From the NCBI RefSeq assembly GCF_000744095.1, contig NZ_JQLI01000008.1, positions 3,224,001-3,288,000 on the forward strand: a stretch of DNA of 64,000 bases. The letters are read 5' to 3'. Source of the stretch: Cupriavidus necator A5-1. Its GTDB lineage: Bacteria > Pseudomonadota > Gammaproteobacteria > Burkholderiales > Burkholderiaceae. The translations under genes and the position numbers were made by a program. Shown here piece after piece: positions 22,235 through 42,093 of this stretch. The first letter of the stretch is position 1. Each line of letters begins with the position of its first letter. The notes under the pieces were generated by a model. The model did no database searches. It was not told where the DNA came from and saw only the letters and a list, made by a program, of their open reading frames with translations.

Positions 22235-23152
22235 TCATTGCCTGGCACCTCCGCCGGTATTGGACAGCCCCCAGACATAGGCGGTCAGCATCCGGATGCG
22301 CTCGGGCGTCAGGATCTCCTCATGCGCGGGCATATGGTTGTTGTGGCCCTTCAGGATGGCGTCGACAATGCTGGCTTCCGCGCTGCCATAGAGCCAGACC
22401 TTGTCGGACAGGTTCGGCGCACCGAGCGCCTGGTTGCCCTTGCCGCCGGCACCGTGGCAAGCCGCGCAGGTCGACTTGAAGGTGCCCTCGCCACGCGAGG
22501 CGCGGATCGGATCCGACGACAGGCCCGACAGAGAACGCACGTACTGCGCTACGTCCCCTGCCAGCTTGGCGTCGATGGTCGCGGCAAACGGCGGCATCAC
22601 GCCATTGCGTCCCTTTGTGATGGTCTGCTGGATCGTCTCCGGCTCGCCGCCATAGAGCCAGTCGCCGTCGGTCAGATTCGGGAAGCCGCGGCTGCCGCGT
22701 GCATCGGAACCATGGCACTGCGCGCAGTAGTTCAGGAACAGGCGCTGGCCGATCTCGCGCGCCTGCGGGTCGCCCGCCACCTGCTTGACGTCCATCTTCA
22801 GGTACTTGGCGTAGATCTCCTTCTGCATCTGCTCCTGCGCCGCGCGGTGGGCGGCCAGTTCGCCTTGCGTCGAGGACTTCAGCACGCCGGCGTACGAACC
22901 CAGCCCGGGGTAGAGCACCAGGTAGGCCAGTCCGAAAATGCAGGTCAGCAGGAACATCCACATCCACCAGCGCGGCAGGGGGTTGTTCAGCTCGCGCAGG
23001 TCGCCGTCCCAGACGTGGCCGGTGTCCTCGGTGGCGCCGGCGGTCTTGGTAATCTTGCGTTGCGAGAACAGCAGCCAGACGCACCAGACGATGCCGACGA
23101 GCGCGATCGCGGCAATGTAGTAACTCCAGAAATCGGAAAAGAAATCGCTCAT
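22235..23152 (-). CDS. ccoP: cbb3-type cytochrome c oxidase subunit III (di-heme)
   Basis: Membrane-bound di-heme cytochrome c of 305 residues. The N-terminal helix (YYIAAIALVGIVWCVWLLF) is followed by a second one at about 62-82. Heme motifs are CAQCH (Cys143, Cys146, His147) and CAACH (Cys229, Cys232, His233), each with a downstream Met suited as sixth ligand (GVMPPF and HMPAHE). It passes electrons from cytochrome c to CcoO and CcoN. Start is 2 bp after the ccoQ stop. Confidence 0.96.
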   Translation of the reverse strand: MSDFFSDFWSYYIAAIALVGIVWCVWLLFSQRKITKTAGATEDTGHVWDGDLRELNNPLPRWWMWMFLLTCIFGLAYLVLYPGLGSYAGVLKSSTQGELAAHRAAQEQMQKEIYAKYLKMDVKQVAGDPQAREIGQRLFLNYCAQCHGSDARGSRGFPNLTDGDWLYGGEPETIQQTITKGRNGVMPPFAATIDAKLAGDVAQYVRSLSGLSSDPIRASRGEGTFKSTCAACHGAGGKGNQALGAPNLSDKVWLYGSAEASIVDAILKGHNNHMPAHEEILTPERIRMLTAYVWGLSNTGGGARQ

Positions 23153-23322: not shown

Positions 23323-23988
23323 TTACTCCTTGGCCGGTGCCGGGGCAGCGGCGGCTTCCACACGCACGTTGCGGCGGTTGGTGCCCAGCCCTTGCAGGTA
23401 GGCCACCAGCGCGTCTTCCTCGGTCTTGCCCTTGAGCGCGTCCGGCGCCTTGGCAATCTCGGCTTCGCTGTAGGGAACGCCCAGCCTGACCAGTGCGCGC
23501 ATGCGCGCCTGGATATCGTTGGTGGGCAGCTCTGCCTTTTCGAGCCACGGGTAAGACGGCATCACCGATTCAGGCACCACATCGCGCGGATTGCGCAGGT
23601 GGATGCGTTGCCAGTCATCCGAATAGCGGCCGCCGACACGCGCCAGGTCAGGCCCGGTACGCTTCGAGCCCCACAGGAACGGATGGTCGAAGACCGACTC
23701 GCCAGCGGTGGAGAAATGGCCGTAGCGCTCAGTCTCGGCCTGCAGCGTGCGCACCTGCTGCGAGTGGCAGCCGACGCAGCCTTCGCGGATATAGATATCC
23801 CGGCCCATCAATCGCAGCGGCGAATACGGGGTGATACCCGGATCCGGTTCGGTGGTGGAGTGCTGGAAGAACAGCGGCACGATCTGGACCAGACCCGCGA
23901 TGCTGACCACGAGGATCGTGCAGATGATCAGCCAGCCGATGTTCTTCTCCAGCGTTTCGTGGGAAAAGAATCTTTGTTTGTCGGACAT
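23323..23988 (-). CDS. ccoO: cbb3-type cytochrome c oxidase subunit II (mono-heme)
   Basis: Membrane-anchored mono-heme cytochrome c, 221 residues. One N-terminal helix (about 17-41: [20 protein letters not shown]) is followed by heme motif CVGCH (Cys71, Cys74, His75), with the typical [12 protein letters not shown] context and Met142 in SVMPSYPW as likely sixth ligand. The rest is the cytochrome fold. The C-terminus is Ala/Pro rich. Operon order N-O-Q-P is canonical. Confidence 0.96.
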
Positions 23989-24006: not shown

Positions 24007-25455
24007 TCAGTGGGCAGAGGCAGGAATGCTGGCCGGGATCGGGGCATCCACGGCACGCTTGCCGACGATGGTCTTGACCATGTTGTAAGCCATCAGCAGC
24101 ATGCCGGACAGGAAGCAGATGCCACCGAGCAGACGGATCAGGTAGAACGGGTACTTGGCCTTGACCGCTTCGACGAAGGCGTAGGTCAGCGTGCCGTCAG
24201 GCTGGGTGGCGCGCCACATCAGGCCTTCCATCACGCCGGCGATCCACATCGAGGCAATATAGAGCACCACGCCGATGGTCGCGACCCAGAAGTGCCACTC
24301 GATCAGCCGCACGCTGTACATCTGCTTCTCGCCGAACAGGCGCGGGATCAGGTAGTAGAGCGAACCGATGGAAATCATCGCCACCCAGCCCAGCGCGCCG
24401 GAGTGCACATGGCCGATGGTCCAGTCGGTGTAGTGCGACAGCGCGTTGACGGTCTTGATCGACATCATCGAGCCTTCGAACGTGGCCATGCCGTAGAACG
24501 ACAGCGCCACCACCAGGAACTTCAGGATCGGGTCGGTGCGCAGCTTGTGCCACGCGCCCGACAGGGTCATGATGCCGTTGATCATGCCGCCCCACGAGGG
24601 CGCTAGCAGGATCAGCGAGAACACCATGCCGAGCGACTGCGCCCAATCCGGCAGCGCGGTGTACTGCAGGTGGTGCGGGCCGGCCCACATGTAGGTGAAG
24701 TTCAGCGCCCAGAAGTGGACGATGGACAGGCGGTAGGAGTAGATCGGGCGCTCGGCCTGCTTGGGGATGAAGTAGTACATCATCCCAAGGAAGCTGGTGG
24801 TCAGGAAGAAGCCCACCGCGTTATGGCCGTACCACCACTGGATCATGGCGTCCTGCACGCCGGCGTAGGCCGAGTAGGACTTCCACAGCGACACCGGCAT
24901 CTCGATGTTGTTGACGATATGCAGCAGTGCGATGGTCAGGATGTAAGCGCCGAAGAACCAGTTGGCCACGTAGATGTGTTTGGTCTTGCGCTTGACGATG
25001 GTGCCGAAGAACACGATCGCGTAGGCGACCCAGACCGCGGTGATCAGCAGGTCGATCGGCCACTCCAGTTCGGCGTATTCCTTGGAACTGGTGATGCCCA
25101 GCGGCAGCGTGATGGCGGCGGCGACGATGACCAGCTGCCAGCCCCAGAACGTGAAGGCCGCGAGCGGGCCGCAGAACAGCCGGGCCTGGCAGGTACGCTG
25201 GACCACGTAGTACGACGTGGCGAACAGCGCGCTACCGCCAAAAGCAAAGATCACCGCATTGGTATGCAACGGCCGCAGGCGGCCGAACGACAGCCAGGGC
25301 GTGTTGAAGTTGAGTTCGGGCCAGATCAGCTGTGCTGCCAGCAGCACGCCGACGGCCATGCCGACGATCCCCCAGACTACTGTCATGACAGCGAACTGTC
25401 TTACGACGCCGTAATTGAAGGTGTCGACGCGTGAAGACGCGGCAGTGACATCCAT
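24007..25455 (-). CDS. ccoN: cbb3-type cytochrome c oxidase subunit I (catalytic)
   Basis: Heme-copper oxidase catalytic subunit with about 12 membrane helices, 482 residues. Histidine ligands for heme b, heme b3 and CuB are in segments such as [28 protein letters not shown] (CuB His) and [27 protein letters not shown] carries the heme b and b3 histidines. It reduces O2 to water with high affinity, giving microaerobic respiration. An FNR box lies about 80 bp upstream, so the operon is probably switched on at low oxygen. Confidence 0.97.
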
Positions 25456-25755: not shown

Positions 25756-28467
25756 TCAGCTTCCCTTGCCCCCGGCACGCAGCAGGCGCCAGGCGTTGGC
25801 CACCACCAGCAGCGACGACAGGGACATGCCGATGCCGGCCATCCAGGCCGTGACAAAGCCTGTCGCCGCCAGCGGAATGGCGACCACGTTGTAGAAGAAG
25901 GCCCAGCCCAGGTTCTGGCGCACCACGCGACGCGTCTTGCGCGACATCGCCAGCGCGGTAGCGATCTCGGCCACGCCGCCATGAGTGAGCACCGCATCCG
26001 CACCAGCCTGCGCCAGCGGCGCACCGCTGCCGATCGCAATCGATACTTGCGCCTGCGCCAGCACCGGTGCGTCATTGATGCCATCGCCCACGGCCAGCAC
26101 CACCGCCCCGCCCTGCTGCAGGCGCGCGACGTAATCGCGCTTGCCTTCGGGTGTCACTTCGCCGGCCACGCAGTCGATGCCGAAGTGCGATCCCCACCAG
26201 TGCACGGCCGCGGCGTTGTCGCCGGAGACCAGGTGGCAGCGCACGCCTAGTTCGCGCAAGCGGGCGAGCAATTCAGAGGTCTGCTGCCGTTCGACATCGG
26301 CCAGCACGATGCGCGCTAGCGGGCCGGATTCCGACCCGAGCCACACCACCGTCGCACCAGGATGATCCGGCTCGCAGGTATCCACATCTGGCGGCTTGAA
26401 GTAGTGCGCGCTCTTTCGCTTGCCGATTGTGTGCTCCCTCTCCCGCCTGCGGGAGAGGGTTGGGGTGAGGGCCAGGCGTGTCGACGAAGTGAGGCAGTGC
26501 GGTATGCCACCTCCTGCCCTCACCCCCGGCCCCTCTCCCGCAGGCGGGAGAGGGGAGCAAACCTCCGGCATCTGAGCCACGAAATCGCCGCGGCCAAGCC
26601 TAAGCCGGCGGCCATCCACGATCGCCTCCAGACCCTGTCCAGGCACATTGCGCATGCCAGTGACCTGTAAGGACGATCCAGCGTGGTCTGCCGCTGCCAC
26701 CAACGCTCGCGCAATCGGATGCTCGCCGCCGCGTTCCATTGCCGCAGCCAGCCCCAGGCATTGCGCCTGATCCAGTTCAGCAAGTGGCTCAACCACTGCG
26801 ACCGCAAAGCGCCCTTCGGTCAGCGTTCCAGTCTTGTCGAGCACCACGTCGGTCACGCGCGCCAGCGTCTCCAGCGCATGGCCGCGCGTCAGCAACACCC
26901 CACGCCGCGACAGCGCCGCACCGGCCGCGGCCAGCGCCGCCGGCGTAGCCAGCGACAGTGCGCATGGGCAACTGACCACCAGCACCGCAATCGTCACGAG
27001 CAGCGCGCGCGAAGGATCGATCCACAGGCCCCACACCACGCCGGTCAGCGCCGCCAGTACCAGCAGCGTCGCCACGAACCAGCCCGCGACGCGGTCGGCC
27101 AGCGTCGCCAGGCGCGGCTTCTCCGCCAGCGCGCGGTCCAGCACGGCGACGATCTCGGCCAGGCGCGTGCCGGCGCCGACGCGCGTGACGCGCACTTCCA
27201 GCGGGCTTGCGGTGTTGTAGCAGCCGGCCAGCACGGTTTCATCGGCGCAGCGGCGCACCGGGCGGCTCTCGCCGGTCAGCATGGATTCATCGAGCTCGCT
27301 CGCGCCCGCCACCACGGTGCCGTCGGCGGGAACGATCTCGCCCGCCTTGACGCGGATAAGGTCGCCCACGCGCAGGCGCGCCACCGGCACGCGCTCGCCC
27401 GTGGCGCCCATGCCGGGCAGTCGTTCACAGGTGGCAGGCAGCTGGCGCGCCAGCATCTCGGCGCCGCTGCGCGACGCCTGCCGCACGCGCAGTTCCAGGT
27501 AGCGGGCCAGCAGCAGGAAGGCGACGAACATCGTCACCGAATCGAAATAGACTTCGCCGATGCCGCGCACGGTGGCCAGCGCACTGGCGACAAAGCCCGC
27601 GCCGATGCCGATGGCCACGGGCACGTCCATGCCCATATGCCGCTGGCGCATGCTGCGCCAGGCGCCGGCAAAGATCGGCGAGGCTGCATAGAACACGACC
27701 GGCAGCGTCAGCGCGAAGCTGGCCCAGCGCATCAGCTGCAGCTGGCCCGGGTCGATGGTGGCTTCATGAGTGTAGATCGGCCACGCGTACATCATCACCT
27801 GCATCATGCCGAGCATGGCCACGGCCATGCGCATCAGCAGGCCGCGGCGGGCGCGGCGGTCCTGCTGGTCGGTGCGCGAGACTTCGAACGGCCAGGCCAT
27901 GTAGCCGATGCCGGCCAGCGCGGCCAGCAGCCCCGCCACCGTCTGGGCGCCGTCGCGCCAGCGCACCACCACGCGCCGGGTGGCGACGTTGGCGACTGCG
28001 GATTCCACGCCCGGCTGCCGGCTCAGGTGCTGTTCGATCAGCCACGCGCAGGCGGCACAGCGGATGTTCTCCGGCGCCAGCGTGATCTCGGCGCGGCCGC
28101 CGTCCAGCGGCCGCACGAACTGGCTGCGCAGCTCAGGGGTGTCGTAGGCGGCCCAGATCGGCTCGGCCTCGCGCCGGGCATCGTCATCGATCGGGCGGGC
28201 AAAACGGGCTTCGTCGCCGTAGAGATGGGCAAAGCCGGCGGCGTGCAGCGTCTGGGCCAGGGCCTGGCATCCGCCGCAGCAGAACACGCGGCGGGTGCCG
28301 TCCAGCTCGGCGGCGAGCGGCTCCGGATCGGTCACGGGCAGGCCGCAATGGAAGCACGCAAGCTGCGCGCCGGTGCTGGCCAGGGCACTACCCGCCGGGT
28401 CGCGGAGCGCTGGCGAGGAGTTGGAGGCCAGCAGGCTGGCAGGGGGGCTGGTGGCTGGGGACGACAT
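25756..28467 (-). CDS. ccoI: CcoI copper-exporting P1B-ATPase with an inserted repeat in the N-domain
   Basis: Copper transporter that supplies Cu+ for cbb3 oxidase assembly; about 903 residues from ATG 28467. In order: an N-terminal Cys-rich metal domain (CFHCGLPV and VFCCGGCQAL), an HMA-like domain with IRCAACAWLIE, eight expected membrane helices including C500-P501-C502, TGES actuator loop, catalytic D544-KTGTLTEG, GEHP nucleotide motif and GDGINDAPVL. The nucleotide domain contains an in-frame insertion at about residues 637-678 (SPLPPAGEGPGVRAGG, LALTPTLSRRRERE), which is a translated copy of the repeat at 26434-26557 and is absent from relatives I know. The frame stays open, so activity may be retained. 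FNR box at 28518-28531. Confidence 0.93.
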   Translation of the reverse strand: MSSPATSPPASLLASNSSPALRDPAGSALASTGAQLACFHCGLPVTDPEPLAAELDGTRRVFCCGGCQALAQTLHAAGFAHLYGDEARFARPIDDDARREAEPIWAAYDTPELRSQFVRPLDGGRAEITLAPENIRCAACAWLIEQHLSRQPGVESAVANVATRRVVVRWRDGAQTVAGLLAALAGIGYMAWPFEVSRTDQQDRRARRGLLMRMAVAMLGMMQVMMYAWPIYTHEATIDPGQLQLMRWASFALTLPVVFYAASPIFAGAWRSMRQRHMGMDVPVAIGIGAGFVASALATVRGIGEVYFDSVTMFVAFLLLARYLELRVRQASRSGAEMLARQLPATCERLPGMGATGERVPVARLRVGDLIRVKAGEIVPADGTVVAGASELDESMLTGESRPVRRCADETVLAGCYNTASPLEVRVTRVGAGTRLAEIVAVLDRALAEKPRLATLADRVAGWFVATLLVLAALTGVVWGLWIDPSRALLVTIAVLVVSCPCALSLATPAALAAAGAALSRRGVLLTRGHALETLARVTDVVLDKTGTLTEGRFAVAVVEPLAELDQAQCLGLAAAMERGGEHPIARALVAAADHAGSSLQVTGMRNVPGQGLEAIVDGRRLRLGRGDFVAQMPEVCSPLPPAGEGPGVRAGGGIPHCLTSSTRLALTPTLSRRREREHTIGKRKSAHYFKPPDVDTCEPDHPGATVVWLGSESGPLARIVLADVERQQTSELLARLRELGVRCHLVSGDNAAAVHWWGSHFGIDCVAGEVTPEGKRDYVARLQQGGAVVLAVGDGINDAPVLAQAQVSIAIGSGAPLAQAGADAVLTHGGVAEIATALAMSRKTRRVVRQNLGWAFFYNVVAIPLAATGFVTAWMAGIGMSLSSLLVVANAWRLLRAGGKGS
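26434..26557. repeat. Double-hairpin repeat element, copy 1, inside ccoI
   Basis: Two inverted hairpins, CCCTCTCCCGC-CT-GCGGGAGAGGG at 26436-26459 and CCCCTCTCCCGC-AG-GCGGGAGAGGGG at 26530-26555, flank a core with ACGAAGT and TGCGGTATGCCA. The segments next to the hairpins, TTGGGGTGAGGGC and GCCCTCACCCCCGG, are also inverted, so the unit is a large imperfect palindrome. A second copy is at 41930-42054 in the opposite orientation. It looks like a non-autonomous REP-type doublet. Confidence 0.9.
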
Positions 28468-28517
28468 GGGGACCTTTTCTACCCGGTGCAGGGTATAGGG
28501 AGGTCCCGGCATCGACC

Positions 28518-41897: not shown

Positions 41898-41929
41898 AGC
41901 GAGCGCGCCAAAGAAGAATGGCCGGTTTG

Positions 41930-42054
41930 CTCCCCTCTCCCGCTTGCGGGAGAGGGGCCGGGGGTGAGGGCAGGACTTGGCATACCGCAGCGAATGACTT
42001 CGTTGATACGCCGGCCCTCACCCCAACCCACTCCCGCAAGCGGGAGAGGGAGTA
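41930..42054. repeat. Double-hairpin repeat element, copy 2, between the HAD gene and ntrC
   Basis: Hairpins CCCCTCTCCCGC-TT-GCGGGAGAGGGG at 41932-41957 and CTCCCGC-AA-GCGGGAG at 42031-42046 flank a core whose reverse complement (with ACGAAGT and TGCGGTATGCCA) is nearly the same as the core of copy 1. It therefore lies in the opposite orientation to copy 1. It sits in the 196-bp gap between two convergent genes and could also serve as a terminator for both. Confidence 0.9.
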
Positions 42055-42093
42055 CACAAGGGGCACTGGTAGAAGCCTGAGTAGTTCGCCCGC

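Follow-up and report, generated by a model that had tools for sequence, protein, structure and literature searches.

In the genome of Cupriavidus necator A5-1, a palindromic repeat lies within ccoI, a gene of cbb3 oxidase maturation, and the question arises of what the repeat is, how it came to be in frame there, and whether the gene product still works. The window analysed was a stretch of 64,000 nucleotides; the features at issue are collected in Table 1. The ccoI product matched the Pfam families PF12156, PF00403, PF00122 and PF00702, scored over the cut-off of the NCBIfam models TIGR01525 and TIGR01511, and had the features of a CcoI/FixI P1B-type ATPase (N-terminal metal-binding domains, DKTGT, GDGIND and a cbb3 gene neighbourhood). 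The adjoining ORFs at 24007-25455, 23323-23988 and 22235-23152 are presumably ccoN, ccoO and ccoP, respectively. The open frame of ccoI had 923 codons and was stop-free across the repeat. A second ccoI was not found in the genome, the next P-type ATPase being 36% identical in the first matched piece and 46% in the second, C-terminal piece.

Table 1. Positions in the window of ccoI, of the repeat and its parts, and of a second copy of the repeat
Feature	Position	Strand	Basis or description
ccoI	25756-28512	minus	heavy-metal P-type ATPase of cbb3 oxidase maturation, 918 aa from first ATG
Stretch of ccoI unalignable to nearest relative	26374-26575	minus	approximately residues 647-713; predicted disordered
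Full repeat	26415-26575 (about)		homology to other copies; ends less conserved
Double-hairpin core of repeat	26434-26557		sequence, repeat search, folding
Hairpin 1, arm of long inverted repeat	26436-26459		repeat search
Hairpin 2, arm of long inverted repeat	26531-26554		repeat search
Second copy of same repeat	41926-42087		intergenic between convergent ORFs; missing from nearest relative (G035)

The two arms of the repeat in ccoI, 24 bp each, were fully complementary to each other, and each was also a hairpin by itself, within a whole repeat of about 160 bp of the double-hairpin type. Folding of the strand at 26425-26570 gave -101.7 kcal/mol vs. a mean of -66.6 for shuffled sequences (z -8.4; none of 200 shuffles folded as well). 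Arms, folding and stop-free frame confirmed the initial annotation in placing a double-hairpin repeat of about 124 bp within the translated frame of ccoI; gene, frame and domain were rightly named there, and support was found for a mobile-type palindromic repeat that keeps the frame of CcoI within the nucleotide-binding domain. The core corresponded to residues 652-693 of the ORF counted from the first ATG, whereas the residues 637-678 reported at first fit a downstream ATG (residue 16) as the start. The unalignable stretch measured 202 bp vs. 43 bp in the nearest relative (G035), with a net gain of 159 bp or 53 codons. A non-homologous patch past the repeat, also reported at first, was seen, but consisted mostly of the repeat's own weakly conserved ends and of a diverged linker (26374-26414), because homology of this copy to other copies reached 26575 and homology to the ccoI of relatives restarted at 26576.

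The hairpin pattern TCTCCC-N6-GGGAGA (at most one mismatch) occurred 203 times in the A5-1 genome vs. 6 times for the reversed control pattern. The ccoI repeat had at least 91 matches in its own genome at E ≤ 0.001 (both strands of the same copies counted; 40 of 178 candidates scored), and by the merging rule there were 38 own-genome places of 100 bp or more. Alignment of 33 distinct full-size copies (34 rows, one duplicate) gave a common layout of hairpin, G-rich tail, spacer, complementary tail and second hairpin; the copies end near TGCTCCC and GGGGAGCAAACC, past which conservation faded across 10-25 bp. Relatives of the repeat were present in 59 of 60 Cupriavidus genomes, own genome counted, with copy numbers that are not comparable across genomes because only the best candidates per genome were scored. 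The initial annotation is to be corrected in that the repeat is not unique to ccoI and is spread genome-wide, in many dispersed palindromic copies per genome, as expected of a repeat of the REP/BIME type. No Rfam family lay over the repeat (22000-45000, gathering threshold), the only match there being the sucA RNA motif RF01070 (35478-35560, minus strand, 86 bits). The plasmid collection yielded one matching record, whose best match spanned 2% of ccoI. No paper on this Cupriavidus repeat family was found in the open-licence PMC literature.

In its accessible part, the study of Di Nocera et al. (2013; PMC3733652) describes in-frame intragenic REPs, dimers included, in many species, and REP clusters in Thauera and R. 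conorii that encode 43-82 residues, and reports GTAG- and CGTC-tagged REPs as mostly intergenic, with a preference for convergent or same-direction spaces. The Cupriavidus repeat resembles the REPs so described in being high-copy and palindromic, in preferring the same convergent and same-direction spaces, and in having an in-frame copy inside a known protein. It differs from the GTAG and from the CGTC superfamily in that the respective tag was within 10 bp of the stem ends in 0 of 48 Cupriavidus hairpins in either case, and with both tags missing it was filed in neither; the words Cupriavidus, Ralstonia and Burkholderia are absent from the main text of PMC3733652. Rickettsia palindromic elements, according to the same accessible part, are translated in frame inside proteins and are in this respect alike, but occupy many genes, whereas the Cupriavidus repeat was in frame at 1 of 75 places examined. 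With REPINs and BIMEs, as the available portions of PMC3116915 and PMC2817692 present them, it shares two opposite palindromes around a spacer, many copies and non-autonomy, but no cognate RAYT was tied to it. Enterobacterial RU elements, to go by the title and available portion of PMC2759123, are likewise small repeats (103-168 bp) with open reading frames and intragenic copies, but belong to another host group; the likeness is one of description. The Cupriavidus repeat looks like a REP dimer or a BIME.

Placement was classed with a codon model at 75 distinct own-genome places, which were drawn from 60 own-genome loci (the window and 59 other stretches) and are part of the genome's places. 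Convergent spaces held 25 places, same-direction spaces 48, a divergent space 1 and a gene 1; the classing is approximate, the model having been trained on seven window genes, one of them represented by the stretch of ccoI that precedes the insert. Locus L127 was dropped from the counts as the same copy as that at window position 41924. Such extragenic placement in convergent and same-direction spaces, with divergent promoters avoided, fits a REP/BIME-type repeat. In 18 of the 48 same-direction places the repeat was in one frame but interrupted by stops, and of the 75 places ccoI alone had a single best coding frame shared by both sides and free of stops. Codon-model scores at ccoI were low (0.20 on the side outside the training, 0.06 on the training side), and the signal wavered when flanks were shorter or nearer to the insert, one side preferring a different frame with 165-bp flanks; protein homology, not codon score, fixes the ccoI frame on both sides.

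An earlier scan of 144 places (duplicates and copies of other species included) gave 31 where the two sides agreed on the best coding frame; at least one stop was present in 29 of these, the remaining 2 being the ccoI place counted twice. In locus L228, tried as a second in-frame copy, the two sides shared one best frame (with an offset of one), yet stops within that frame led to its rejection. Long open frames through the repeat were numerous in a peptide search of 60 genus genomes; 20 of the qualifying loci, chosen by eye, were scored together with 4 own-genome loci including ccoI, and the frame of the element was the best coding frame on both sides in 0 of these 24. The nearest was ccoI, best on one side and 0.04 behind an antisense frame on the N-terminal side, so that ccoI would not stand out by this test alone. 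Loci from three genomes (L229, L230, L231) had the repeat close to the beginning of a long open frame that continues for another 651 codons; in these loci it probably precedes the true start and belongs to the 5' leader of a single gene.

Most full-size copies could be read through in several frames. The one read in ccoI ('-0') was open in 24 of 33 copies and the core length was divisible by three in 11 of 33, so that the sequence of the repeat permits an in-frame fusion; the rarity of such fusions despite this suggests selection against insertions in genes. The insertion had been called unusual, which holds within the A5-1 genome (one place in 75), but in-frame intragenic REPs were already published (PMC3733652, accessible part).

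The element was present in 0 of 51 distinct related CcoI sequences aligned, and the orthologue alignment that the initial annotation had proposed gave a lineage-specific segment. The 51 sequences resulted from 59 rows (29 from the genome search and 30 of the 80 loci of a second collection, with 50 loci left out) by merging identical proteins from the two collections; L091 was excluded for its unclear start, and L072 was kept though partial (405 aa), with its loop length counted and its motif scan ending short of the loop. Between residues 646 and 717, the loop numbered 70 residues in A5-1, compared with 10-51 (median 18) among relatives, and the insertion therefore struck a loop already free to vary. 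Low-complexity expansions, TGT-type and ALVPP-type, were observed in the same loop in two other species (L023 and L059).

Comparison of G035 with window positions 18000-53000 gave just two unaligned stretches above 30 bp, that in ccoI and that of the second copy; each held a copy of the repeat, and both copies were also missing from two further relatives. Gain in the A5-1 lineage is therefore favoured. At the site of the second copy, G035 had a terminator-like inverted repeat with runs of A and T (by eye), which the repeat seems to have split or replaced. No target-site duplication was seen by eye at the repeat copies. One Y1_Tnp match was found, in a RAYT-like protein at 1435-2163 of locus L125 on contig C3 (221 kb), which scored 46 bits with the REP_Tyr_transpos model (cut-off 80) and had no hairpins of the repeat family around it. 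It was the sole Y1 transposase-like protein found, and no mobilising enzyme could be tied to the repeat family.

In an AlphaFold model of CcoI (34-row alignment; mean pLDDT 81.8, pTM 0.75), the insert had a pLDDT below 50 and no predicted secondary structure (model residues 607-669, ORF residues 652-714). The N-domain was predicted to fold confidently on either side (pLDDT 86-95 in ten-residue blocks before 600 and after 670, model numbering), with the insert flanked by a short helix (597-601) and a strand (676-682), and the match of CcoI to a CopA structure was likewise interrupted there (query 585 to 689). The dN/dS (NG86) of A5-1 ccoI vs. L010 was 0.13 in residues 50-645 and 0.06 in residues 717-915, as low as that of L010 vs. 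five element-free relatives (0.08-0.13), a measure that would miss function lost only long after the lineages split. A modified ATPase regulation, which had been suggested, was unsupported, as the site is a naturally variable loop, predicted to be disordered, with selection by dN/dS unchanged. The simplest reading of sequence and model is that CcoI most likely still works, with a longer floppy loop; the insert would be translated and the insertion would have been nearly neutral.

It is thus quite likely that the Cupriavidus repeat entered ccoI after the split from the nearest sampled relative, and that the pump has about 53 extra residues and most likely works. Observed directly in its favour were the family of the repeat, relatives with an empty site, the stop-free frame, the low dN/dS and the natural variation in loop length. 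A non-autonomous REP/BIME-like palindromic repeat would have been mobilised in trans by some enzyme and would have landed, following that split, in the N-domain linker between the 'GDFVA' short helix and the 'TVVWLGS' strand, whose length varies across species. The approximately 53 added residues would probably be disordered and the pump most likely functions as before; it would still be made because the added length is divisible by three and no stop interrupts the frame used.

A divergence peak approximately 1 kb wide (about 25950-26900) was centred on the insertion in ccoI. Next to the repeat, identity to G035 fell to 82.8% and 76.5% in two 200-bp bins, the most divergent pair among 183, vs. 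93-99% in most neighbours, and the top four of 341 100-bp bins for private A5-1 substitutions were the four closest to the repeat (6.8-9.0%; mean 1.2%). Private changes amounted to 31 of 333 sites in residues 510-650 vs. 9 of 1152 in residues 50-500; 19 of the 31 were from G/C to A/T and 2 the reverse, and 10 were nonsynonymous. The GC3 of A5-1 ccoI dropped to 64-73% in residues 540-650 and 716-750. G035 likewise had raised private substitution in those bins (2.7-6%), and reached its maximum elsewhere (bins of 7.0-7.4%), away from any insertion studied. Private changes of L010 in residues 510-650 were at 14 of 316 sites, and single GC3 bins near 71-72% were also present in L013 and L014, so that part of the peak is fast evolution of the loop region. 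Flanks of the second insertion were near baseline and had no divergence peak, which disfavours a general mutagenic effect of the repeat; hypermutation linked to insertion, tried as a general property of the repeat, was rejected as unsupported.

The repeat may instead have arrived in a ccoI segment of about 1 kb recombined from an unsampled Cupriavidus, a possible but unlikely course that differs from the favoured explanation solely in the route of arrival, so that the probabilities of the two overlap. It would account for the extreme bins on both sides of the repeat, the clustering of private substitutions next to it, the low GC3 and the lack of such a peak at position 41926, but no donor for 26576-26830 was found in the 59 other genus genomes, the best match again being G035 (78%), nor in an earlier search among 30 genus genomes without G035. 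Trees (20 rows and 24 rows) argue in the same direction, as A5-1 ccoI grouped with L010 in the divergent part (90% ultrafast bootstrap), on a branch of 0.153 vs. 0.007 in the N-terminal part, its position being without support when the upstream side was used alone; the region also evolves fast in other species (L010-L011 identity approximately 80%). The peak, the feature here that most deserves renewed attention, may stem either from import out of an unsampled lineage or from mutation raised locally. An association between repeats, indels and clustered substitutions has been published (PMC3114760, accessible part). A direct link between repeat and peak, whereby the palindrome or recombination raised the local substitution rate and ccoI was remodelled around a now functional disordered loop, is improbable.

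Entry of the repeat into a gene that goes on working has also to be weighed against damage. Approximately 53 foreign residues within the ATP-binding domain, and a raised rate of private substitution nearby that includes the nonsynonymous changes counted above, would be expected if the insertion were a recent inactivating or weakening mutation and ccoI were beginning to decay; this is improbable, as the frame is open throughout, conserved motifs are kept, dN/dS is low on either side and relatives tolerate loops of up to 51 residues. Co-option of the inserted peptide or of its mRNA hairpin for the regulation of CcoI could explain a very stable hairpin in the message and the sole place of 75 with a coding frame kept open, but the peptide is predicted to be disordered and is absent from all aligned relatives, and selection that purged other copies would equally explain the rarity of in-frame ones, which makes co-option very improbable. 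An artefact of assembly or sequencing might be suspected at a repeat in an assembly listed at 5.43% contamination; its probability is close to negligible, the best near-full-length match to another copy being 91% (40 of 178 candidates scored), with 95-98% just in pieces of 53-64 bases, the net length preserving the frame and the listed completeness being 100%.

The insertion in ccoI is an uncommon accident of an already described type, with the gene not visibly broken, and what is known of CcoI stands unchanged. The case shows cleanly how a bacterial palindrome can turn into protein sequence, with family, empty site and selection on the host gene all readable. It points to this N-domain loop of CcoI as one where insertions are permitted, and supports the view that fusions of repeat and protein survive where a loop already tolerates a change in length.
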